The notes beneath the pieces were generated by a model, which made no database searches, had not been told where the DNA came from, and was given only the letters and a program-made list of their open reading frames with translations. Shown here piece after piece: positions 73 through 12,436 of a stretch of DNA of 64,000 bases. Numbering within the stretch: position 1 is the stretch's first letter; each line of letters opens with the position of its first letter. The DNA comes from Candidatus Nitrosotalea sinensis (GTDB lineage: Archaea > Thermoproteota > Nitrososphaeria > Nitrososphaerales > Nitrosopumilaceae), in assembly GCF_900143675.1 (NCBI RefSeq), contig NZ_FRFC01000003.1:1-64000 (forward strand), in the 5' to 3' direction. The translations under genes and the position numbers were made by a program.

Positions 73-3000
73 TCATTGAGTGATAGGGAATCGGAGAGTG
101 ATTTTGTGAGTGTATTTTGTACATTGACTGTATTGTCGTTGAGTGTGAGTGAGTCTTGAACATTCTTGACTGGATACGTGGGGGTTGACGGTATTGTCAT
201 TTAGTCCGAGTGAGTCGGAGAGTGGCTTTGTTTGACTGGATACGTGGGGGTTGACGGTATTGTCATTTAGTCCGAGTGAGTCTTGAAGGTTCTTGATAGA
301 TATGTGTACTGCTACAACAGCATTGAGTCCTAGTGAATCTTGTGGTGGTTTATAGTCTGTTTGGAATTGCTTTATTGCGTTGTTATTAGAGTCTGCTACA
401 TAGACATAGTTGTTGCTGTCTACTGCAACACTGATTGGGCCGTCAAGACTATTGGTGAGTGTTTGAATATAGTTTCCATTTTTATCAAACTTTTGTACTC
501 TATCATTTTGTACATCTGCAACATACACGTTGTTGAATATTTTATCAATTGCAATGCCTGTTGGACTGTTAAATTGTGTGTTTCCATTACCTGTAGATCC
601 AAATGAACTCTTGTATGTTGCACTTGAATCAAAGATCTCAACTCTGTCATTTCCGGCATCTGTAACATAGACATACCCTGTACCGTTTACTGCAACTCCC
701 ATCGGTCCCAGGAATTGCCCAGTACCAGTACCACTAGAGCCAAATGTTCTGAGATAATTTCCATGAGTGTCAAATTCTTGTACCCTATCATTTCCTGTAT
801 CTGCAACATAGATGTTATTGGATGAGTCTATTGCAATTCCTGTTGGAGATGAAAATTGGTTATTTCCATTTCCACTTACACCCGTACCAATATTTCCAAC
901 AACAGTCCAAGCAGAATTGTATATGTCGATTTGGTTTGTGTTAGTATTTACTGCATAGGTATACCCTGTGCTGTTTACTGCAACTCCAAAGTAACTAAGA
1001 CCGGTAGAATTATGCTGTAGTACACCATTTGAATTTGATATTGCTACATAACCATTGTTGCTATAGATGAAATCATTAGAACTATCAAATGTTATGCTGA
1101 GTGGAATATTAGCAGAGATTGGACTAGACATGGCTGCATTGTTATTTGCATATGCAACAGAATCTCCAAACTGGAACATTAGGTGATGTTTACCAAAGGT
1201 TATCACATGAGATGTTTCATATCCGGTTTGATTGCTAGAATAGTTATGGTAAATAATGGAATTGCCCTGTCTTGTTACATTAAGCCCAGTTGTACCATTA
1301 TTCAAGAGTAGGAATTGTAGGTCTGCAGGAGTTGCATTTCCAAATTGTGTTCCATTAATTCCAGTAATGTTTAGATCTGCAGTACCAGTAGTGGTAAAGT
1401 ATACAGTCCAGTTTCCTCCCTGTATTGGGTATGACTGGACGTTTATGACATTGATTTGTGCCTGTATCTCGAAATCTTGTGCGGATAATTTTGGCACAGT
1501 CCATTGCATCTGGTCTGCTATACCGTTGCCATTAGTATCTACTAGCTTTACGTTAAATCTAGGATCGTGTGTGACATCTGTCTTGGAACCATTAATCAAC
1601 CAGTATAGCTTGAATGGTACTCCTTTCTTTACAAGATCCTCAGAGATATTTGAGAATGAGGTTACGTTGGTATAGTGCAAGGTAGAATTGTGTTCAACAG
1701 TGACCAATTTATCAAACGTCGACTTTGTTGAGACATCTTTTTCTACTGTATATGGGGCCGGAGTTGTAAATTGGATGTTATATTTTTGTGCGGTGTCATT
1801 GACCAGAATTAGTTTTGTAGGTTTGTTTTTCTGTACAGAGCCAGGAAGGTCACTTAGAGATGCTATTGGAGTGGTGTCATTGTTTATAGTAACAGACTTG
1901 GTTGCAGAGTCCATTTGAGTATTATTTGTATCATTAACAAATTCTAGTTTAGATGCCTTTACCTTTTTGATATCAGTATTATTTGAGATGCCAGCAAGGC
2001 CTGATAAAGGCGCATTTGTCTGTGATAAAGTGGCATTAGACGAATATACAGTGGATACATGTGTACTGTTGATTGCTTCTATTTTTGTAATCTTGGCATC
2101 TTGTGGAAGTTCTACTGCTACTTTGTCAGTTTGATTGGATAAAGTCACATTTTGAGTCCAAGTTACTGGTTTATTGATCTGGATTGGAGCATGCTTCAAC
2201 GTAAGATCAGTAACAATTGTTGTGTTGTCAAGGGTAGAGTTGGTTGGAAGCAAGGGTTGTGTTGCATTAGAGTATTGGAATGACATGGTAGAGTTGGAAT
2301 ATTGGAATGATATGGTGGAATTGGTTGTTTTCTGCCCAAGTGATACAGCATTTAGGTTGAGAGGATTGTTATTGACAGAACCAAGGTGTGCGATTTGTTC
2401 CTGACTTAGTAATGAATCATATAGTTTGACGCTCTGAATTGAACCTGAGAATTCATTTGTAGAGTGTCCTCTTAGGGTATTAAGATAGGCACCAATGATT
2501 ACATCTGCATTGGAAGATAGGTTATCTACAGTCTTTGTTTCCAGTTTTCCATTTATGGCAATATAAGGCACTCCTGAAATATGTGCAGTGGATTGTAATG
2601 TGCCATTTACATAGATGCTGATAGAGGTACCGTTGAATGTTGCTGCAATATTAGTCCAGTTCTCGCCAATTGGAAGTGTAGAGTTTACGGTATTCCACTT
2701 TACACCATCAAAGATAGAAAATATGGCTATTTTTTGTGGTGGGAGCACATTATTTATTGCAAGTATAAACTGATTCTCTTTACTTACTATGGTAAATTGT
2801 GGAGATCCCTGGCTATAATCTGGCTTTACCCATGATGATATGGTAAAGTTGGACAGGTTTCTTGTGGAATTGACATTCTCAGATAGATAGCCTGTTCCAG
2901 TTAGTTTCAAAGATACAATTCCAGTATCGTTTCGTATTTTTGCATATCCTGTAGTTGTAGAGTTTTGTGCACCCAAGTTAAATTGCCATGATTTTGTTGC

Positions 3001-4104
3001 ATTTGGAAGAGATGGTGTTCCTGTTGTTTGGTTTACAGATTTGGTAGGATTGGTTGCAACAGGTTGAGTGGAATTAGAGTATTGGAATGATGGTAGTAGA
3101 TGAGTTGCATTAGAATACTGGAATGAAGGTGAGACAGTGGAATTAGAGTATTGGAATGATGGTAGTAGATGAGTTGCATTAGAATACTGGAATGAAGGTG
3201 AGACAGTGGAATTAGAGTATTGGAATGATGGTAGTAGATGAGTTGCATTAGAATACTGGAATGAAGGTGAGACAGTGGAATTGGTTTCTTCCGCATATAC
3301 AGTTCCCAGGAATATGGGAGATATTGACAAAGGAGTAACCACAATTGAGGAGATAATAATTACAACAAAGCAAAATGAAAGAATTTGCTTGATTTGTGGT
3401 GTTCGGAATTTGTTTCCTTCAGAGCGTAGTAAAATATATCCTGAAAGAGGAATTAGTAAAATCAAGATGGTCGGATTTTTAGGATCGCTTGTTACATGAG
3501 CAAATTTTATAATTTCATTTGCAGATGAGCTAGAAAATACACTAAGATCATTTTCAAGAGTTACAAAAGAATTTGAAATAATTGTATAGGAATTATGTAG
3601 TATGGAGATGTTCTGGATACCATAAAACTGGCCAACATATTTGGTATCAAATCCAAATAGACTAGTTGTTGATTGTGATCCTAACCAAGAAATATTTTGT
3701 AGATCATTGGATATCTTTTGATTCTTTAATCGTTTAGATCCTAATCTATCAGTGATCATTTTTTCATTAAGGTTTTGTTTTGCAATGGTCAATACAATTT
3801 TTGAATTATTATTTTCAACAAGTCCAATATTTTCAGATAGACTTACAATATGATTATTGATTGTAGGCGGTTGATTTGATGGATTATTTTGTTTTCCATG
3901 ATTTTCTGACATTCCAATATTTTCAGACAATGATATCTGGTAACTTTTTGACACATGTTGTTCAGATGATTGCATAGAAATAGAATTTCCAAATGGAATT
4001 TGTTTTGAGTTATCAGAGCCAACTACATTATCTGCACTTGCAGCTGACAGCGATGAAATTACAAGTAAGAAAATAACAAAGAGAGAAATTATTTTTAGTT
4101 GCAA
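73..4104 (-). CDS. giant secreted LamG/NHL-repeat surface protein (3' end frameshifted)
   Basis: Secreted or surface-attached protein of about 1343 residues. I place the start at the TTG at 4104, not the ATG at 4146, because a strong Shine-Dalgarno AAGGAGGA (4111-4118) sits six bases upstream and the product then opens directly with a signal peptide (residues 1 to about 25). Two more hydrophobic stretches lie near residues 210-225 and 240-270. Then follow three SFQYSN-type tandem repeats, a LamG/concanavalin-like domain (about 370-570), a long Thr/Asn-rich beta region, and at least four NHL blades (about 1030-1280, motif IYVADTGNDRVQ). The C-terminus is a chain of DSLGLNDNTVN repeats. The reading frame breaks near base 170; the repeat continues in another frame to base 1, so the original gene extends beyond the window. 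Probably an adhesin or sheath protein; the exact role is unknown. Confidence 0.85.
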   Translation of the reverse strand: MQLKIISLFVIFLLVISSLSAASADNVVGSDNSKQIPFGNSISMQSSEQHVSKSYQISLSENIGMSENHGKQNNPSNQPPTINNHIVSLSENIGLVENNNSKIVLTIAKQNLNEKMITDRLGSKRLKNQKISNDLQNISWLGSQSTTSLFGFDTKYVGQFYGIQNISILHNSYTIISNSFVTLENDLSVFSSSSANEIIKFAHVTSDPKNPTILILLIPLSGYILLRSEGNKFRTPQIKQILSFCFVVIIISSIVVTPLSISPIFLGTVYAEETNSTVSPSFQYSNATHLLPSFQYSNSTVSPSFQYSNATHLLPSFQYSNSTVSPSFQYSNATHLLPSFQYSNSTQPVATNPTKSVNQTTGTPSLPNATKSWQFNLGAQNSTTTGYAKIRNDTGIVSLKLTGTGYLSENVNSTRNLSNFTISSWVKPDYSQGSPQFTIVSKENQFILAINNVLPPQKIAIFSIFDGVKWNTVNSTLPIGENWTNIAATFNGTSISIYVNGTLQSTAHISGVPYIAINGKLETKTVDNLSSNADVIIGAYLNTLRGHSTNEFSGSIQSVKLYDSLLSQEQIAHLGSVNNNPLNLNAVSLGQKTTNSTISFQYSNSTMSFQYSNATQPLLPTNSTLDNTTIVTDLTLKHAPIQINKPVTWTQNVTLSNQTDKVAVELPQDAKITKIEAINSTHVSTVYSSNATLSQTNAPLSGLAGISNNTDIKKVKASKLEFVNDTNNTQMDSATKSVTINNDTTPIASLSDLPGSVQKNKPTKLILVNDTAQKYNIQFTTPAPYTVEKDVSTKSTFDKLVTVEHNSTLHYTNVTSFSNISEDLVKKGVPFKLYWLINGSKTDVTHDPRFNVKLVDTNGNGIADQMQWTVPKLSAQDFEIQAQINVINVQSYPIQGGNWTVYFTTTGTADLNITGINGTQFGNATPADLQFLLLNNGTTGLNVTRQGNSIIYHNYSSNQTGYETSHVITFGKHHLMFQFGDSVAYANNNAAMSSPISANIPLSITFDSSNDFIYSNNGYVAISNSNGVLQHNSTGLSYFGVAVNSTGYTYAVNTNTNQIDIYNSAWTVVGNIGTGVSGNGNNQFSSPTGIAIDSSNNIYVADTGNDRVQEFDTHGNYLRTFGSSGTGTGQFLGPMGVAVNGTGYVYVTDAGNDRVEIFDSSATYKSSFGSTGNGNTQFNSPTGIAIDKIFNNVYVADVQNDRVQKFDKNGNYIQTLTNSLDGPISVAVDSNNYVYVADSNNNAIKQFQTDYKPPQDSLGLNAVVAVHISIKNLQDSLGLNDNTVNPHVSSQTKPLSDSLGLNDNTVNPHVSSQECSRLTHTQRQYSQCTKYTHKITLRFPITQ
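160..190 (-). other. frameshift inside the C-terminal repeats of the giant surface protein
   Basis: Upstream of this point the minus-strand frame reads HVSSQ followed by an unrelated tail ending at a stop at 73. Dropping one base around 170-173 gives HVSVKNVQDSLTLNDNTVN, which matches the upstream copy HISIKNLQDSLGLN, and the frame then stays open to base 1 with three more DSL(T/S)LNDNTV units. So a single-base insertion, real or from assembly, truncates the protein. Confidence 0.75.
166..283. repeat. 66-bp period direct duplication in the surface-protein 3' region
   Basis: A 51-base segment starting at 166 (TTGACTGGATACGTGGGGG...) recurs exactly starting at 232. The 66-base period is 22 codons, so the duplication itself keeps frame. 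Each copy carries a G5 run. Exact identity implies recent duplication or gene conversion. Confidence 0.85.
3068..3274. repeat. three tandem 69-bp repeats (SFQYSN repeats)
   Basis: Three head-to-tail 69-base units start at 3068, 3137 and 3206, and a fourth begins to match at 3275. Each encodes 23 residues containing two SFQYSN(A/S)T motifs on the minus strand. Two further partial SFQYSN motifs lie around 2265-2320. Confidence 0.92.
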
Positions 4105-4291
4105 GGTAGTTCCTCCTTGTGTTTTATTGAATTGGTAAAACTGCATTCATTCCTAGTTAGAATTACAGTGGCTGTGTAAAATGACGGTAGACCTGTAGAA
4201 TCTACAATTACCATTGGAGGTACTAGTATACTAGAAGTGAGTATCCTACCAATCATAATTTATTTAAATTTGCATTAACATTAAGAGGGGT

Positions 4292-4326
4292 GGAAATAAC
4301 GCTGGGATCTACATTCCAACTTGGAA
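4292..4326 (-). promoter_or_regulatory. shared secretome promoter element, copy for the giant surface protein
   Basis: On the minus strand: TTCCAAGTTGGAA(T), 16 bases, TTTCC, four bases, then an A/T-rich TATA-like stretch. The same layout precedes the genes starting at 8539, 11483 and 12365. Here the element lies 188-222 bases upstream of the TTG start, which implies a leader of about 150 bases carrying the strong Shine-Dalgarno at 4111-4118. Confidence 0.55.
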
Positions 4327-5778
4327 AAACGGGTTTTAGCCCAGTCCATTCTGGAATAGCTAAATTTTGTCAAAAAATGAGTTTTTTGATTACAAAATCA
4401 TTTACGGATCGCGATTTCACAATAGTACATGATTTGATGTCAGTTTTTCTCAGTTTCAGCAAAATATGAAAAATCAAAATGCATCAATAATCCATGCAGA
4501 TGAAATAACTTATTGAAAAATTATTTGTATCATGTAAATTAAAAGATATTCAAATGTTCTATTACTAGAGAAAGCATATTAGAGAATAATACAAATTTAT
4601 TAATGACACCAATGCAATATTTTCCGGTACAATCATAAAATAATATTGATATAAAATTTTATGATAACATAGTTTTCATAAATTAATTAGTTATATTAGT
4701 AAAAATGCCATTTTAAATATTTTAGAGCAACAATCGAATTTAAAAAATAATAATACTATTGGAAATAACAGGCTAAAGACTAATACAATAAGAATTTCTT
4801 TAGGAAAATTTTTATCAAATGAATTTATATAAAAAAAATATAGATACCCTCATTTGTTGTATGAAGACATATCAAACATTGATTTCATTTACAACATATT
4901 TCATCTACTTTTTATTTACTAATACAAATAAGATGTAATGAAATTAAAATAGCAGTGTAGTGATGTTTGAATGATTATCATATATGTATATGTTATATCC
5001 GATACATCCAATATTGAACTGAATTATTTGAATAAAGAAATACTATATTCAAATTAAAAAATCAGATATTGATTATTCTAATTCAAAATGCAATTCAAGA
5101 AAAATATGAATTTCAAATCACAAAACAAGATTAGTATGAAATTGTTAAATTAGAAAAATATTTAGAGTATCATAAGAGAATAAACCGTAAGTTATCATTT
5201 GTAAGAAAATTATTATCATTTACATATGAATAATACAAAGAATATGTCTTTGCAAGTAGATTATAACTAAAGTAGACATAAAACCTCACACAAATTAATT
5301 CATAGTAAAAATAGATTAGAATGACATGATTTCATTGTACTAGAAATACCCATGAGAGTATTATAATTTAGATTTGTGAGCAATGATACATTGTCTAAGT
5401 AAGATTAGACAAAAATTTTGTACAAATGTTTGAGAGTATCCCTACGTAAATCACATAATTCACTGAGAAATACAATCAATTGTAAATGACATAATTATAG
5501 AGAAGGTTATTTTCTGGAATTGAAAATTTATAAATTTCTTAATTTACTTTGTACACAAATTTTTACACTCTAAACATGAAATAAAATCTTCAATTTGAAG
5601 AAATTGTGTTTATTTTTCATGTGAAAAAATAACAATAAAGTACTAGCTCCTATAGTCCTTGCAGAAGAATAATCTGATATACACATTGGCTTTACATGGA
5701 AAGTAACTAACAATTGTTTTACCTAGATTGCATAGAATCATTAAGACATCTTAATTTATCAGTGATAAAGACAGTTCT
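4327..5778. other. A+T-rich gene desert
   Basis: About 1.45 kb with no credible coding region on either strand and very high A+T content. I see no tRNA, no clear inverted repeat of an insertion sequence, and no direct-repeat array. The right end must hold the promoter of the gene at 5779. A 25-codon ATG frame at 4861-4938 follows a TATA-like TTTATATAAA at 4823-4832 but has no other support. Confidence 0.6.
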
Positions 5779-6342
5779 TTGTTGAATTTCAAGATAATTA
5801 CAATAATTATTGGGGTTGCAATTATAATATCTGCTCTAGTAATATTAGGGCCTATTACTAAACCTGCTACAGACAGTAATGACCAGTACATAACTAAAGG
5901 TAGCATAAGTCATTCTGCTGTAAATTTTACGTTACCTGCCAATTACACATCAATTCAGCTTCTTGATTATTGCTCACAGAGTCAATCTCTAGTATATGAT
6001 GATAATTGTTTACGTGGTCTATGGGATGTTAATGATGAATGTAAAAATGGCAATTTCTCATCAACAAATTCCGTATGCCAAGACCCAAGACTTGGACAAT
6101 TTGAAGATAAGGTAAATGCATACATGAAAGAACTAGATAATTCGTTGACAAAGATGGTCAATTCATGCATTAATGTGACATCGGACAATGATATCCATTC
6201 TTGCTCAGATAACATGGAGAGAATAAAAAATGATTGTTCAGATCCAAGATTGTTTTCCATGTGGTCAGTATGCACTGATCCTAAGATAGATCAATTTAAT
6301 GAAAAATTCAAAGAAACCCTATCAAAGACTAATTCTCAATAA
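5779..6342 (+). CDS. small Cys-rich secreted or membrane-anchored protein
   Basis: 187 residues, not assignable to a known family. Residues 4-25 form one hydrophobic segment (signal anchor), followed by an extracellular part with about eight cysteines in a loosely repeated pattern: a WDVNDEC block and a MWSVCTDP block, each ending in D-P-(R/K) followed by a QF-E-K helix. This suggests two copies of a disulfide-stabilised helical unit. The start is a TTG at 5779 (a second TTG follows immediately); no clear Shine-Dalgarno is visible, so the transcript may be leaderless. It stands alone between A+T-rich spacers next to the surface-protein cluster. Confidence 0.65.
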   Translation: MLNFKIITIIIGVAIIISALVILGPITKPATDSNDQYITKGSISHSAVNFTLPANYTSIQLLDYCSQSQSLVYDDNCLRGLWDVNDECKNGNFSSTNSVCQDPRLGQFEDKVNAYMKELDNSLTKMVNSCINVTSDNDIHSCSDNMERIKNDCSDPRLFSMWSVCTDPKIDQFNEKFKETLSKTNSQ

Positions 6343-6652
6343 TTTTAATGAATGTAGTATTGATTCAGCACTAATTGTACAAATTCTGCAGCCATTTCAA
6401 ACTAAATCATTCTAGTTATTCTATAACAGCCATGTGTACCACATGTGGATAGTTGTGATGAATCTGATCATATAATACAATATCATATGATTAACTTTGA
6501 ATAATTTCTACAAAATCAATTGCTTAGATTATTTTCAACATGCGAAATTAAATGACTAGGCAAAATTTCATCAGAATTAAAAGAACTAATCTAATAGTTT
6601 AACAAATGAATTATTTGTTAACTTGTTTGTTATATCAAAGCGTAAAAATTAT
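6343..6652. other. 310-base spacer with one small hairpin
   Basis: No gene is seen. A perfect 6-bp inverted repeat, CATGTG-TAC-CACATG, lies at 6431-6445, about 90 bases after the upstream stop, and could act in transcript end formation. The rest is A+T-rich. Confidence 0.45.
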
Positions 6653-8539
6653 TTATCCTTTTATTCTAACTAACAACTCGTAAACTGATGTTGCAGCACT
6701 ATTTATTGTCGGACTAGTTCCATACGTTGATGGGAGTGCATTAGTACAGCAGGTATATGTTGCAGTATATCCAGTAGCAGTTTCAACAGCACCCATTGTA
6801 CTAACCATTCCAAGAATATTGGGTATTGCAGCAACCGGTATCGCCCTTAGTGTAGGTAATGTAGCTTTGCATGAAATTGCCAACCAATACATATTTCCAC
6901 CATATAGTGTAATAGGTGAACCAAAGGTGGTTGTTTTGACGCCTGTTGCTGTTGTAGCAACTGAACCTGAGTCACTACCACTTACCAAGAATTCAGGTTG
7001 TTGATTTCCATTGTCAGTATAGATTCCTTGTCTACATGCAGATGTTGCTCCAGAGGTAGTAACTTCAAATTGTTCTGCATCAATTGTAATTGTTTTTGGT
7101 ACTACGAATGGATAAGCATTAAGAGTAGCTACTCCTGCCAAGGTAGTTGCAGTATAAGTCATTGTACCTGCACCATACCAACGATTCATTGTAGAACCGC
7201 TTGTTCTAAACGAATTAATGTCATCACTTGTACGATCTATTCTTAGCCAATTACTACCGTCAGATTGTATTGTCATCGTACCGCCGTTATTAAAAATACT
7301 CAGTGTAGCATTTCCACCTATTGTTTGTGAGTTAGATGGAACAATCGTCAACACATTACCTGATGTATCGTCCTTTTTAATCCAATAAATTTTTCCTTTC
7401 AGTGTTGTCGCATCAGGCAAATTGAGTATTGTAGGATTTGTGCTTGTTGTGTTAACGTCTATGACATCATCAGTTGTTGCTGCAGTATATCCACTAGTAG
7501 TTTTTTTAATAGTTCCAGTACTAAGTCCTTTTACAAACAATGTATTAGTAAAATTATTATTTTGCGTAAAGGTTTGAGCCAAACCCAAGGTAGCAAGTGT
7601 ATCAGTTCCAGTAGTTACTGGCAGGTTCAGGGTACGGTTTGCTGTTACTGCACCGCCTGCTAGAGTAGTTGCAAAGGTATTGGCAGGATTTCTAACTATG
7701 ATTCCAGTATTGCCAAACTTGTCAGTTGTACTTGAACCAAAGTCTTGATTACTAGTCCAGATTTGGGCCAATCCCAGGGTGGCAAGTGTATCAGTTCCAG
7801 TAGTTACTGGCAGGTTCAGGGTACGGTTTGCTGTTACTGCACCGCCTGCTATTGTTGTTGCAAAGGTATTGGCAGGGTTTCTAACTATGATTCCAGTATT
7901 GCCAAAATAATCTGTCTGACCTGAACCAAAGTCTAATCCCTTCTGGAATGTCTGTCTACCGTTGTTTCCCGTTGTTGTAACTACGTTAGGGCCAATATCA
8001 ATAGTATGCTGACCTGTACCTTGATTTGTGACAGTTGTATTACCTGTAACTTGATTAAAGAACTGTGCAGCAGTATTATCTGTATTTATTGATGTCACAG
8101 CAGCTGACAAAAATGAGGAACAAGCCCATGTACCAGAAGCTGATTGATATTTTAAGACCTGATTATTGCTACATGTTGCAGTAGTAGAAACTATAGTTTG
8201 AGTGGCACTGTTTACGTCAAAGAACTTGAATGCGTTTACGTTAGCAGCAGTATTAAACCACAGATCACCTGTGGACAGACTACTTGGATTACCGGATATT
8301 CCTGCCAGACTTATTCCAGAAGTACCAGAAGTACTTCCTTGAAATGTTTGCTTTGATCCTGCATTATACGTATTTGCAGTATCTGTAAAAACAGATGTAG
8401 TAGGAAGATCAGATTCAATGAATCGCGATGCCAAGGATATGGCTTTCTTTGGAATTCCTGCAGCATCTGCAGAATATACTACTATAGTAGACAATACTAC
8501 TAACGATACAACCAGTACTGCAAGAGACCCCTTTCTCAC
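6653..8539 (-). CDS. secreted tail-fibre-like repeat protein
   Basis: 628 residues with a signal peptide (about 1-27, basic RK then a hydrophobic core). The start is GTG at 8539, supported by AGGTGA at 8546-8551 on the coding strand. The middle carries two almost identical 63-residue units containing NTGIIVRNPANTF and NRTLNLPVTTGTDTLATL, a pattern I associate with tail-fibre and viral structural proteins. A beta-rich module (TTDDVIDVNTTS to GNATLSI) resembling phage structural proteins follows, then a C-terminal beta domain with two cysteine pairs (ACRQ, CCTN). It is likely extracellular. Its promoter shares the TTCC-N5-GGAA element with the next two genes. Function is unproven; an adhesin or extracellular filament component is an inference. 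Confidence 0.75.
   Translation of the reverse strand: MRKGSLAVLVVSLVVLSTIVVYSADAAGIPKKAISLASRFIESDLPTTSVFTDTANTYNAGSKQTFQGSTSGTSGISLAGISGNPSSLSTGDLWFNTAANVNAFKFFDVNSATQTIVSTTATCSNNQVLKYQSASGTWACSSFLSAAVTSINTDNTAAQFFNQVTGNTTVTNQGTGQHTIDIGPNVVTTTGNNGRQTFQKGLDFGSGQTDYFGNTGIIVRNPANTFATTIAGGAVTANRTLNLPVTTGTDTLATLGLAQIWTSNQDFGSSTTDKFGNTGIIVRNPANTFATTLAGGAVTANRTLNLPVTTGTDTLATLGLAQTFTQNNNFTNTLFVKGLSTGTIKKTTSGYTAATTDDVIDVNTTSTNPTILNLPDATTLKGKIYWIKKDDTSGNVLTIVPSNSQTIGGNATLSIFNNGGTMTIQSDGSNWLRIDRTSDDINSFRTSGSTMNRWYGAGTMTYTATTLAGVATLNAYPFVVPKTITIDAEQFEVTTSGATSACRQGIYTDNGNQQPEFLVSGSDSGSVATTATGVKTTTFGSPITLYGGNMYWLAISCKATLPTLRAIPVAAIPNILGMVSTMGAVETATGYTATYTCCTNALPSTYGTSPTINSAATSVYELLVRIKG
7575..7912. repeat. 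189-bp tandem duplication inside the tail-fibre-like gene
   Basis: The segment at about 7575-7723 recurs at about 7764-7912 with a period of 189 bases (63 codons). The copies differ by only a few substitutions, so the duplication is recent or maintained by conversion. Confidence 0.85.
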
Positions 8540-8575
8540 AACTGTTCACCTAGTAAAGAAACAGATAAAGATTTA

Positions 8576-8611
8576 GGAATTTTCGCATTGATCATAGTTC
8601 CAAAATGGAAG
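8576..8611 (-). promoter_or_regulatory. shared secretome promoter element, copy for the tail-fibre-like gene
   Basis: Minus strand: TTCCATTTTGGAAC, 16 bases, ATTCC, four bases, TCTTTATC. The proximal edge lies 37 bases before the GTG start at 8539. The palindrome and both spacings match those upstream of 11483 and 12365. Confidence 0.65.
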
Positions 8612-8669
8612 TATTAACGGGTGATTGAAATACATTATTGCATGAGGCTACTAGTAATTGTAGACTTTA

Positions 8670-11483
8670 TCACTTTTTATGGTCTTTAGCATCATCATGT
8701 TTTACATCGTCATCGTTGTCTGTTACATCCTTCCATGCATGCTTGTAATGTTCAATTACATCATCAAAGTTACCCTTGCTATAATCATCAGCTGCATTGT
8801 TCATCTCCTTTTGTGCATCATCAATGTGATGTTGTAATTCTTTTGCATCGTTTCCAGAGAGGTGTGTGACTAGGGCCTTGGCATCATTGATGGCTGTGGT
8901 AGCAAGCATATTGTCTACATCTACCAATTGATTGATATCATTTCGTAATGAATTTAAGACAGATGTAGACTCTTTACCATCTTTTATTACATCCATCATG
9001 TGTCTTGTTGCCTCTTTTTCTTCGTCAAAGACATGTTCCCCTTTCTTTGTGTTTAGGTGTATACCATCAGTACTCCACCATGTAGGTGTTACACTTTCGG
9101 TTATATCGTTGGCTGCTTCTTTAATATCATGTTGATCATCTTTGGTAACAAGTGTAAGCATACTCAGGTTTTCTACTACACCACTCTTCTTTGCAAATGG
9201 TGTTGATGTAGATGCTGTTGGTGTGGCATTTGCTTCATTTGAAGCAGATGATGCGCCAGCAGAGTTTACTGCTCTAATGACATAGTAGTATGTCTGACCG
9301 TTTGTTACTCCAGTATCAACAAAGCTTGTGGAAGTTACTCCAGTAGCAATTGGTGTTGCAGATTCTCCTCCTGCTGTAGTACCACGGTATATGTTGTAAC
9401 CAGTAATTGATGAACCTCCATTAGATGTTGGAGCTGTCCAGGAGAGTGAGACTTGGTTGTTTCCTGGTGTTGCTGTTAGTGAAGATGGAGCAGATGGAGG
9501 TGTTATGATTGTAGATGAAATTGGTTTTGCACTTGCCTCATTTGAAGCAGATGATGTGCCAGCAGAGTTTACTGCTCTAATGACATAGTAGTATGTCTGA
9601 CCGTTTGTTACTCCAGTATCAACAAAGCTTGTGGAAGTTACTCCAGTAGCAATTGGTGTTGCAGATTCTCCTCCTGCTGTAGTACCACGGTATATGTTGT
9701 AACCAGTAATTGATGAACCTCCATTAGATGTTGGAGCTGTCCAGGAGAGTGAGACTTGGCTATCTCCAGGTACGGCAGTTAACGCAGATGGTGAAGCTGG
9801 AGGTGAAGACGGTGTGGCATTTGCTTCATTTGAAGCAGATGATGCGCCAGCAGAGTTTACTGCTCTAATGACATAGTAGTATGTCTGACCGTTTGTTACT
9901 CCAGTATCAACAAAGCTTGTGGAAGTTACTCCAGTAGCAATTGGTGTTGCAGATTCTCCTCCTGCTGTAGTACCACGGTATATGTTGTAACCAGTAATTG
10001 ATGAACCTCCATTAGATGTTGGAGCTGTCCAGGAGAGTGAGACTTGGTTGTTTCCTGGTGTTGCTGTTAGTGAAGATGGAGCAGATGGAGGTGCTGCTGC
10101 ATATAATGTAGCACTTGCTTCATTTGATGCATATGACATACCGCCAGAGTTTACTGCCTTGATAACATAGTAGTATGTCTGACCGTTTGTTACTCCAGTA
10201 TCAACAAAGCTTGTGGAAGTTACTCCAGTAGCAATTGGTGTTGCAGATTCTCCTCCTGCTGTAGTACCACGGTATATGTTGTAACCAGTAATTGATGAAC
10301 CTCCATTAGATGTTGGAGCTGTCCAGGAGAGTGAGACTTGGTTGTTTCCTGGTGTTGCTGTTAGTTTAGATGGTGATACAGGTGATACAATCAAGTACAC
10401 TTCATTTGATGATGGTGACAGACCGCTGATGTTGAATGCTTTAATGGTATAATAGTATGTTTGACCAGGTACTAGTCCACTGTTATCAGTATATCCTGGT
10501 GCGTTTGTTACAGTAGCAAGTGGTGTTGCACCTTCTCCTCCAGGAGTAGTGCTACGGTACACATTGTAACCAAGTATTGCAGAACCTCCAGTGGATGTTG
10601 GAATTGTCCATGTAAGTGAGACAGTACCGTTAACAGTTGAAGCTATTGGACTTGATGGAGGACTAGGAATAGTGTGAACAAAAGATATTGCAGCAAGTCC
10701 GGGAACAGATTGTGCTACCTTGGATACTGCTATTGGAGTTGTACTTGGGCCGTTGCTTAGATTGATTGTGGCCAAGTATTGACTTGTATCACATGATACT
10801 GCTCCGTATAGTTTTCCAGATGTATCAAACGAGAGTGATATTACACCACAATTAGTATCAGGGAATGCAGAGAAATCTAACGGTGCAAACAAGCTAAAGC
10901 TTGCTGAGTTTACAGGCTGAATTATTCGATATATTCCATAGGTGTCTGCATAATAGATGTTATTATCAGGGCCAACGGAAAGACCTCCAAATGATGAAGT
11001 GTCAGATGGATCAAGCAAATGTGAGGTAATGCTTAGAAAAGATCCGTTTGGATTAAGACCGTTTACTACAAGTAATGGAGAAAAGACCAAACCACAGATG
11101 AATCTAGGATTAGGCTTGATTGCTGGATCAAATGCAAATCCTCCTGTACAGTCAGCAGACTTGGAATATGCATATGCACCTACTCCTGTTGTAGTGCTGA
11201 TGGTTGTTACATTACCATCCGCGCCATACAAAAATCCAGTGCTGTTAAAATCAATTCCAGTAACTACAGAACCTATTCCAGATCCTATTGGAGTATAGGA
11301 GCCATCAGAAGGATCAATTGAATATAGATTAGATACAGAATCTGCGCCATACAATACAGCAGGCACTGGTGGGATTGCATCTGCAGATGGAATAATGCCA
11401 TTATTATTTAATGAGACATATGAAGGAAAGAACAAAAGTGCAGATATGCTAAATAGCATAACTAGGGAAAGCTGTTTTCTCAC
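8670..11483 (-). CDS. secreted fibronectin type III array protein
   Basis: 937 residues, GTG start, signal peptide about 1-36 ending near ADA. Residues about 40-270 look like a beta-propeller (repeated LYGADS, IDFNSTGFLYGAD, IYYADTYGIYRI). Five fibronectin-III domains follow (about 275-740, motifs VSLSWTAPTSNGGSSITGYN and TYYYVIRAVNS); the first is diverged, the other four nearly identical. The last 170 residues are charged and helical, ending in a His/Asp/Lys-rich tail (DDVKHDDAKDHKK). This is probably a cell-surface binding protein with a polyvalent stalk. It lies between two secreted genes on the same strand, each with its own copy of the shared upstream element rather than a common operon. 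Confidence 0.82.
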   Translation of the reverse strand: MRKQLSLVMLFSISALLFFPSYVSLNNNGIIPSADAIPPVPAVLYGADSVSNLYSIDPSDGSYTPIGSGIGSVVTGIDFNSTGFLYGADGNVTTISTTTGVGAYAYSKSADCTGGFAFDPAIKPNPRFICGLVFSPLLVVNGLNPNGSFLSITSHLLDPSDTSSFGGLSVGPDNNIYYADTYGIYRIIQPVNSASFSLFAPLDFSAFPDTNCGVISLSFDTSGKLYGAVSCDTSQYLATINLSNGPSTTPIAVSKVAQSVPGLAAISFVHTIPSPPSSPIASTVNGTVSLTWTIPTSTGGSAILGYNVYRSTTPGGEGATPLATVTNAPGYTDNSGLVPGQTYYYTIKAFNISGLSPSSNEVYLIVSPVSPSKLTATPGNNQVSLSWTAPTSNGGSSITGYNIYRGTTAGGESATPIATGVTSTSFVDTGVTNGQTYYYVIKAVNSGGMSYASNEASATLYAAAPPSAPSSLTATPGNNQVSLSWTAPTSNGGSSITGYNIYRGTTAGGESATPIATGVTSTSFVDTGVTNGQTYYYVIRAVNSAGASSASNEANATPSSPPASPSALTAVPGDSQVSLSWTAPTSNGGSSITGYNIYRGTTAGGESATPIATGVTSTSFVDTGVTNGQTYYYVIRAVNSAGTSSASNEASAKPISSTIITPPSAPSSLTATPGNNQVSLSWTAPTSNGGSSITGYNIYRGTTAGGESATPIATGVTSTSFVDTGVTNGQTYYYVIRAVNSAGASSASNEANATPTASTSTPFAKKSGVVENLSMLTLVTKDDQHDIKEAANDITESVTPTWWSTDGIHLNTKKGEHVFDEEKEATRHMMDVIKDGKESTSVLNSLRNDINQLVDVDNMLATTAINDAKALVTHLSGNDAKELQHHIDDAQKEMNNAADDYSKGNFDDVIEHYKHAWKDVTDNDDDVKHDDAKDHKK
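9229..10365. repeat. four near-identical fibronectin-III coding repeats
   Basis: Units at about 9229-9480, 9532-9780, 9823-10075 and 10111-10365 share long stretches of identical DNA (for example CCGTTTGTTACTCCAGTATC), separated by variable linkers. A fifth, diverged unit lies at about 10397-10640. DNA-level identity beyond protein need points to recent expansion or gene conversion. Confidence 0.88.
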
Positions 11484-11518
11484 AGGGTGTGGTATTTTAT
11501 TGAAATGATAAAGACTGA

Positions 11519-11554
11519 GGAATTCTTGTCTTTATTATAGTTCCAAAATGGAAC
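11519..11554 (-). promoter_or_regulatory. shared secretome promoter element, copy for the fibronectin-III gene
   Basis: Minus strand: perfect palindrome GTTCC-ATTTT-GGAAC, 16 bases, ATTCC, four bases, TCTTTATC. The proximal edge is 36 bases before the GTG at 11483. The block from the palindrome through TCTTTATC aligns without gaps to the copy at 8576-8611. Confidence 0.68.
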
Positions 11555-11738
11555 TTTCAAACACATTTGTTGGGCCAAAAAGTGCAGATCATACAACAGG
11601 AAAATTTCTACAATAATCTAAATACAGTAATTCCTATTATTTGTTTCCCATATTTTGGAAATATAATTTATAATTAAATAATTTTGGTGAAACATAGTCT
11701 TGACTGAGTACATTAAAAAAATAAAAGAATAAAGAAAT

Positions 11739-12365
11739 TTACTGTGTTCCTACAGTGATTGTCCAGGTTACAGTCAGTGCATCGTTTGTATTCAATACAA
11801 TTGTGTTAAATGTCTGACCTGCAAACATTCCATTTGTATTAAAGGATGTACCGTTGAATATTCCTGCTTCTCTCACATTAGTACTTGCTCCACCATTTGT
11901 GAATTGCTTGGATAGAGTTACAGTTGCACCGCTTCCTGAGGAATCGGCTACAGAGTTTGTAGTTGCTGCTGCTCTTGCAAGTCCAGAAACGTTTGTTTCG
12001 TTACCCAACTTGGTTGAAGTTGCACTAATTGTAGCACTTGAAGTACCGAGTGCAAGGTTTGCATATGTAGTGGTAGAAGCACCAGTACACAGTGATCCTG
12101 CGGTTGCAGTCGAACCAAATATCAGTCTGCCTGCGCAGCTTTCACCTGATCGTACTACTTGGTTGTCTCCTTGTCGGTATTCTTTGATTTGACCTTGTGC
12201 GTCAGTAACCATCAATGTAACATGGCCTAACATTTGGACTGGTTCAGCACTAGTGGTCTGTCCTACATTAGAGGACGGATTTATGGAAAATCCACTCACG
12301 CTTAACAAGCCTACGGATAGGGCTATTACAGCACTGGTTATTCCCAAAGTCATTAGTTTCTTCAT
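11739..12365 (-). CDS. secreted virion-like beta protein
   Basis: 208 residues, ATG start, signal peptide about 1-26. The mature part has two cysteines near residues 77 and 92 and a C-terminal pattern VREAGIFNG...GQTFNTIVLNTNDALTVTWTI, which resembles small beta-rich structural proteins often seen in tailed-virus genomes (EAGLFN...DTLTVTWTI). That resemblance is from memory of the family pattern, not from a search. The presence of a signal peptide argues for an extracellular host product rather than an intracellular prophage remnant. It shares the upstream element with the two larger secreted genes that follow on the same strand. Confidence 0.7.
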   Translation of the reverse strand: MKKLMTLGITSAVIALSVGLLSVSGFSINPSSNVGQTTSAEPVQMLGHVTLMVTDAQGQIKEYRQGDNQVVRSGESCAGRLIFGSTATAGSLCTGASTTTYANLALGTSSATISATSTKLGNETNVSGLARAAATTNSVADSSGSGATVTLSKQFTNGGASTNVREAGIFNGTSFNTNGMFAGQTFNTIVLNTNDALTVTWTITVGTQ

Positions 12366-12400
12366 AGGGTCGAATATGCCTTGGTCTTATTAGATATTAT

Positions 12401-12436
12401 GGAATTTATTAAATCCAACAAGTTCCAAAACGGAAT
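12401..12436 (-). promoter_or_regulatory. shared secretome promoter element, copy for the virion-like gene
   Basis: Minus strand: ATTCCGTTTTGGAAC, 16 bases, ATTCC, then ATAATATCTAATAAG as TATA-like sequence. The proximal edge is 36 bases before the ATG at 12365. The far edge touches the stop codon of the small gene at 12436. Confidence 0.65.

Follow-up and report, generated by a model that had tools for sequence, protein, structure and literature searches.

A conserved promoter element of secreted-protein genes in Nitrosotalea and a candidate Lrp-type regulator carrying a GAF domain

Secreted-protein genes and promoter elements in the window

The 64-kb stretch of DNA that was analysed, from an ammonia-oxidising archaeon of the Nitrosotalea lineage and referred to here as the window, carries four minus-strand genes whose products have signal-like N-termini by eye. 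The largest (73-4104) encodes a secreted LamG/NHL protein with internal repeats (SFQYSN...) and C-terminal repeats (DSLGLNDNTVNPHVSSQ); this protein has many paralogous matches in its own genome, 21 of them at E up to 1e-10. Two genes open with leaderless GTG codons, one for a 628-aa secreted repeat protein (6653-8539), in which tail-fibre-like repeats were seen by eye and for which there is no Pfam or PHROG match, and one for a 937-aa secreted fibronectin-III protein (8670-11483; Pfam fn3, E 4.7e-38). The fourth, with a leaderless ATG, encodes a 208-aa protein with a predicted fold like that of viral tail fibres (11739-12365).

Among PHROGs, the 208-aa protein has a match (5.1e-12) to a phage family whose function is unknown. 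In its model (pTM 0.70) there is a likeness to a portion of the Haloferax tailed virus 1 tail (E 1.2e-5) and to viral tail-fibre proteins, 33 viral models being matched at E up to 1e-3. From the predicted fold, it is reasonable to suggest that this protein may be a surface adhesin or receptor-binding module. Despite the viral likeness of the model, it looks like a cellular secreted protein. A peptide scan of the genome contigs with the 208-aa protein returned no relatives, but a genome homology search did find them, and on contigs from across the genus homologues of this protein are repeatedly found near those of the 628-aa and large proteins. With a possible provirus or virion cassette in view, five window proteins were checked against PHROGs; two gave matches, the fibronectin-III protein in its fn3 region and the 208-aa protein, and the flanking genes examined around the latter are not virion genes.

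Each of the four genes has upstream of it an exact, minus-strand match to TTCC-N5-GGAA-N17-WTTCC, and there are no other exact matches in the window. Element 1 (4292-4326) consists of the dyad TTCCAAGTTGGAA (4326-4314), N17 and ATTTCC, with TTAA at 4284-4281. Elements 2 (8576-8610) and 3 (11519-11553) both have TTCCATTTTGGAA, N17 and ATTCC, with TTAT at 8568-8565 and 11511-11508, respectively, and element 4 (12401-12435) has TTCCGTTTTGGAA, N17 and ATTCC, with CTAA at 12393-12390. All four elements have their TATA-like tetramer (TTAT, TTAA or CTAA) at an identical offset. A preliminary description of this DNA had reported four minus-strand sites with identical internal spacing and no other full copy in the window, both of which the exact matches bear out. 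The gap of 16 bases that it gave between GGAA and WTTCC was wrong, the actual gap being 17; the literal TTCC-N5-GGAA-N16-WTTCC has no exact match in the window, where N17 gives exactly four, and the N16 spacing was rejected.

With up to one mismatch allowed there are 4 matches in the window against 0.16 expected, a number reached by no shuffle. In the whole 1.6-Mb genome the window's four are the only exact copies (reversed control, 0), the dyad alone is enriched (47 versus 13), and a refined pattern, with the TATA-like box added and three mismatches allowed, is found in 14 places (control, 0). The gap between element and start codon is 35 or 36 bases for GTG 8539, GTG 11483 and ATG 12365; a fixed short gap at these three genes had been described before, at 36-37 bases.

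At the large gene the likely start is TTG 4104-4102, preceded by AAGGAGGA at 4118-4111; the ORF listing starts at ATG 4146. The distance from element 1 is about 187 bases, in agreement with the 190 or so reported previously. At the standard 35-base distance from this element there is another ATG (4256-4254), which opens a predicted 53-aa ORF (4095-4256, minus strand). In G004 and G025, relatives of the large protein have their own start right at 35 bases from the element; given this, and the standard distance of the ATG here, transcription from the element 1 promoter probably starts at 4256. The 53-aa ORF overlaps the Shine-Dalgarno-like site and the start of the large gene, and is possibly a translated leader. 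An Rfam scan of the window gave nothing at gathering score, and no known RNA family was seen in the leader (4104-4256). A minus-strand near-dyad, TTCCAGAATGGAC (4344-4356), 30 bp upstream of the element 1 dyad, is possibly a third site on the same helix face. Further upstream, between element 1 and the gene for a 187-aa protein, about 1.4 kb (4360-5778) has no listed ORF of 60 aa or more and no Rfam match.

Conservation, promoter position and targets of the element

The element is conserved across the genus at a fixed promoter position. A genome search with the pattern and a listing of the downstream genes, the check proposed in the preliminary description, showed that placement is not random: there are 40 exact copies against 4 control copies in 37 Nitrosotalea genomes. 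The 44 distinct exact copies read were those that could be fetched, a few of them from other genera. In 25 of the 44 the element is followed, at 34-38 bases, by a start codon whose ORF runs to 45 aa or more. When distances are binned by 5 bases, the 35-39 bin holds 26 copies and the remaining bins 0-11. In the 25 start-proximal copies, the positions left free by the search are A in 24 and T in all 25, giving the dyad TTCCA-N3-TGGAA. Past the proximal TTCC, at 7 bases, comes a TTAW-like box, about 28 bases ahead of the start codon. This spacing of element, TATA-like box and start codon is the geometry of an archaeal leaderless promoter.

Comparisons that began from the proteins give the same picture. 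Where loci were picked solely for protein homology, the spacing between GGAA and the following TTCC has a sharp maximum at 18 bases: 16 sites show it, and no other spacing is shown by more than 5. The element is also retained, at the expected distance, before 15 of 18 homologues of the 208-aa protein, likewise picked without regard to the element, before 6 of 13 of the large LamG/NHL protein and before 2 of 5 of the 628-aa protein, where readable upstream DNA and no more than 3 mismatches of 15 were required and the background is about 0.00085 per start; these counts share ancestry and are hence not independent events.

Two simpler elements were considered and rejected. The dyad at about -70 without a proximal TTCC has about 385 matches in the genus, barely above the approximately 321 at a shifted distance and mostly coding noise; the half-site therefore belongs to the element. 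A generic WTTCC core element was likewise set aside, because TTCC near -40 is rare at other window promoters.

Outside the genus there are only four exact elements, and three of these adjoin an Lrp gene. In one genome of another family (G057) the element is directly behind an Lrp-GAF gene, whose own upstream region holds a dyad. In a second (G038, other family) two exact elements flank a lone Lrp gene, at a locus that also holds apparent relatives of the window's 208-aa and 255-aa proteins (by eye, unaligned). For the remaining element, in G046, no Lrp link was found.

Seven of the 14 refined-pattern places in the window's own genome are confident targets, defined by a start codon at 35-37 bases that opens an ORF of at least 50 aa. 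These include the four window sites, a small secreted protein adjoining the candidate regulator gene described below, a paralogue of the 628-aa protein on contig C5, and a KaiC-like ATPase on contig C4. An eighth, a 55-aa zinc-finger-like ORF with three mismatches in the element (C4:6877-6956), is doubtful. In relatives, the element is found before a small secreted family in four genomes and before small cytoplasmic proteins; the name NitrOD5, first given to small targets in relatives on a resemblance by eye, was dropped, as there is no such Pfam match. A ribbon-helix-helix-like family also carries it in four relatives (L087, L093, L074 and L095), 35-36 bases before the starts, and these small proteins could be targets or further regulators. 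The extracellular protein set proposed in the preliminary description is therefore right for the window genes, which are secreted, and too narrow overall: with a KaiC-like ATPase, cytoplasmic proteins and ribbon-helix-helix-like proteins also behind the element, the regulon would be wider than surface proteins.

A candidate regulator of the Lrp family

Elsewhere in the genome, outside the window, dyads cluster at a gene (G000:C3:454700-455689) for an Lrp/AsnC-type protein that ends in a GAF domain, here called Lrp-GAF. Two dyads precede the gene, at about -97 and -45, a spacing of five helical turns. Upstream DNA could be read for 16 same-genus orthologues, and every one of them has both dyads in exact form, separated by 52-54 bp. 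Most of these same-genus orthologues also have a half-site 31 bp, or three turns, from the distal dyad. Clustered palindromic sites in the gene's own control region, a feature of the Lrp/AsnC family, are thus present at the level of sequence. The divergent secreted-protein neighbour of Lrp-GAF has dyad-N17-CTTCC, with CTTCC for WTTCC, 36 bases before its ATG. In two Nitrosarchaeum-like orthologues a spacing of 52 bp separates a perfect dyad from one with a single mismatch. The spacing is again 52 bp in a Nitrosopumilus orthologue (L219, DAOWGL010000169.1, upstream of 556), where the dyads read TGTCC-N5-GGACA and TGTCC-N5-GGAAA and the recognition helix reads RGIRHRLQK versus RAIRQRLQR in Nitrosotalea. 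In this one genome it looks as if the operator and the recognition helix have changed in step.

A profile of 11 Lrp-GAF orthologues matches the LrpA and Lrp structures at the N-terminus (E about 1e-6) and GAF domains at the C-terminus. In the AlphaFold model (mean pLDDT 71) a helix-turn-helix is followed by the beta-alpha-beta-beta-alpha-beta order of a RAM fold (E71-79, H84-96, E100-105, E112-118, H121-135, E139-146) and then by GAF, and Foldseek returns GAF domains and AsnC/Lrp structures. Profile and model thus place an AsnC/Lrp-type helix-turn-helix at the N-terminus, and model and Foldseek a RAM domain after it. The Pfam scores for the HTH_AsnC-type domain (E 6.1e-5) and for AsnC_trans_reg, the RAM domain (E 0.057), are both under the curated cut-offs, so the family assignment rests on the profile and fold evidence.

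The fixed position of the element, its conservation before homologous genes and the dyads at the candidate regulator gene together support, at the level of sequence, the suggestion of the preliminary description that a dedicated regulator acts here. The element appears to be a true regulatory operator and is probably of Lrp type. The preferred reading, with a probability of roughly 0.7, is that the four window sites are operators of one regulon, with Lrp-GAF as the best candidate binder, activating the surface-protein set. At least five Nitrosotalea genomes, all at least 96% complete, have elements without Lrp-GAF (G012, G014, G017, G026 and G030), and binding of the window operators by Lrp-GAF is therefore less certain than the role of the element as a regulatory operator. 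The preferred reading is further weakened by the small number of confident own-genome targets, about seven, and by the G046 element, for which no Lrp link was found.

Under the preferred reading, the operator would consist of the dyad TTCCA-N3-TGGAA, 13 bp long with its centre some 65 bp ahead of the leaderless start, and of one TTCC half-site that follows at 31 bp (three helical turns) and adjoins the BRE/TATA region. The most likely binder would be an Lrp/AsnC-type regulator, for which Lrp-GAF is the own-genome candidate; it would form a higher-order Lrp assembly that contacts the dyad and the half-site from one face of the helix. Such dyads would also let Lrp-GAF control its own gene and the secreted-protein gene divergent from it. 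We infer that a small molecule, sensed by the GAF or the RAM domain, would trigger the response, and that the assembly would most likely aid recruitment of TBP/TFB at a weak TATA box and so switch on adhesin-like surface proteins. A more far-reaching form of this proposal, in which the GAF-fused Lrp senses a small molecule and coordinates a leaderless adhesin regulon with tail-fibre modules, and in which operator and helix have co-changed across genera, is tentative and falls a little short of even odds.

The same protein and operator could instead act in repression, the assembly covering BRE/TATA until a ligand releases it. This is a serious alternative, if an unlikely one. The proximal half-site is only 7 bases from the TATA-like box, which the rest of a 13-bp site would overlap, and at the Lrp-GAF promoter a full dyad is just upstream of the likely TATA box. 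However, activation would suit the TATA-like boxes, which look weak by eye, and the known archaeal Lrp activators, Ptr2, LysM and Ss-LrpB, have their site just upstream of BRE (PMC2995911).

It is rather improbable that another regulator, the short Lrp paralogue or some other factor, reads the window elements, with Lrp-GAF using this type of site at its own locus alone. The short Lrp (L174, G000:C9:31766-32179) was found in all genomes checked, including the five that have the element without Lrp-GAF, and its recognition helix is related (DRTIRKRIERLE versus DRAIRQRLQRLE); it may read the same site in those five genomes. The ribbon-helix-helix-like family that carries the element in four genomes offers another possible source of such a regulator. 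Against this, there are no dyads upstream of the short Lrp genes, the conserved dyads sit at the Lrp-GAF locus, and in two other families exact elements adjoin Lrp genes. By eye, the short Lrp gene and its orthologues (L168-L172) are directly behind an apparent intron-containing tRNA gene.

That there is no dedicated regulator at all, the element being a variant core element for a particular TFB, a promoter copied with duplicated genes or the product of chance, is very improbable: the four window genes are neighbours and archaea of this group have several TFB paralogues, but chance is excluded by the controls, the sequence between the conserved blocks is unrelated and the genes are from different families, and a dyad at -65 is not a core element, nor is TTCC near -40 common at the other window promoters.

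Significance and comparison with known systems

The window elements appear to represent a new operator and regulon, probably served by a known type of regulator with an unusual sensor fusion. The literature that was searched describes no regulon or operator of such a kind for ammonia-oxidising archaea, which are abundant in soil and sea and whose transcription regulation is little explored. The cis-element, the promoter geometry, the target set and a candidate sensor-regulator are defined here from sequence, in enough detail for a direct bench test. Targets with a viral tail-fibre-like fold also bear on cell attachment and on the exchange of modules between archaea and viruses. The likeness to the tail of Haloferax tailed virus 1 and to viral tail-fibre proteins is one of predicted fold in the 208-aa target and not of the switch; unlike those proteins, the 208-aa protein has a signal-like N-terminus, and its homologues recur in cellular contigs.

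Archaeal Lrp proteins are known to bind clustered palindromes two or three turns apart (PMC2995911). FL11 of Pyrococcus has the Lrp fold, binds a 13-bp palindrome as a dimer and forms higher-order assemblies on clustered sites (PMC2995911), in all of which the proposed system is alike. FL11 has lysine, an amino acid, as effector and metabolic genes as targets, whereas the proposed regulator has an additional GAF domain and mostly surface proteins as its targets.

In Ss-LrpB of Sulfolobus solfataricus the likeness is in the clustered, regularly spaced palindromes of its own control region, where cooperative dimers wrap about 100 bp of DNA (PMC2995911). The consensus of Ss-LrpB is different, it has no GAF domain, and its targets are in transport and central metabolism.

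Ptr2 acts by recruitment of TBP. This Lrp-type activator of Methanocaldococcus jannaschii is likewise of the Lrp family and also binds the control region of its own gene (PMC2995911). It differs in its electron-transport targets, in the absence of a GAF domain and in the sequence of its site, and binding in the present system is a prediction from sequence. A Ptr2-like geometry is nevertheless found here, with the proximal TTCC at 35-38 bases before the start codon and the TATA-like box 7 bases further on.
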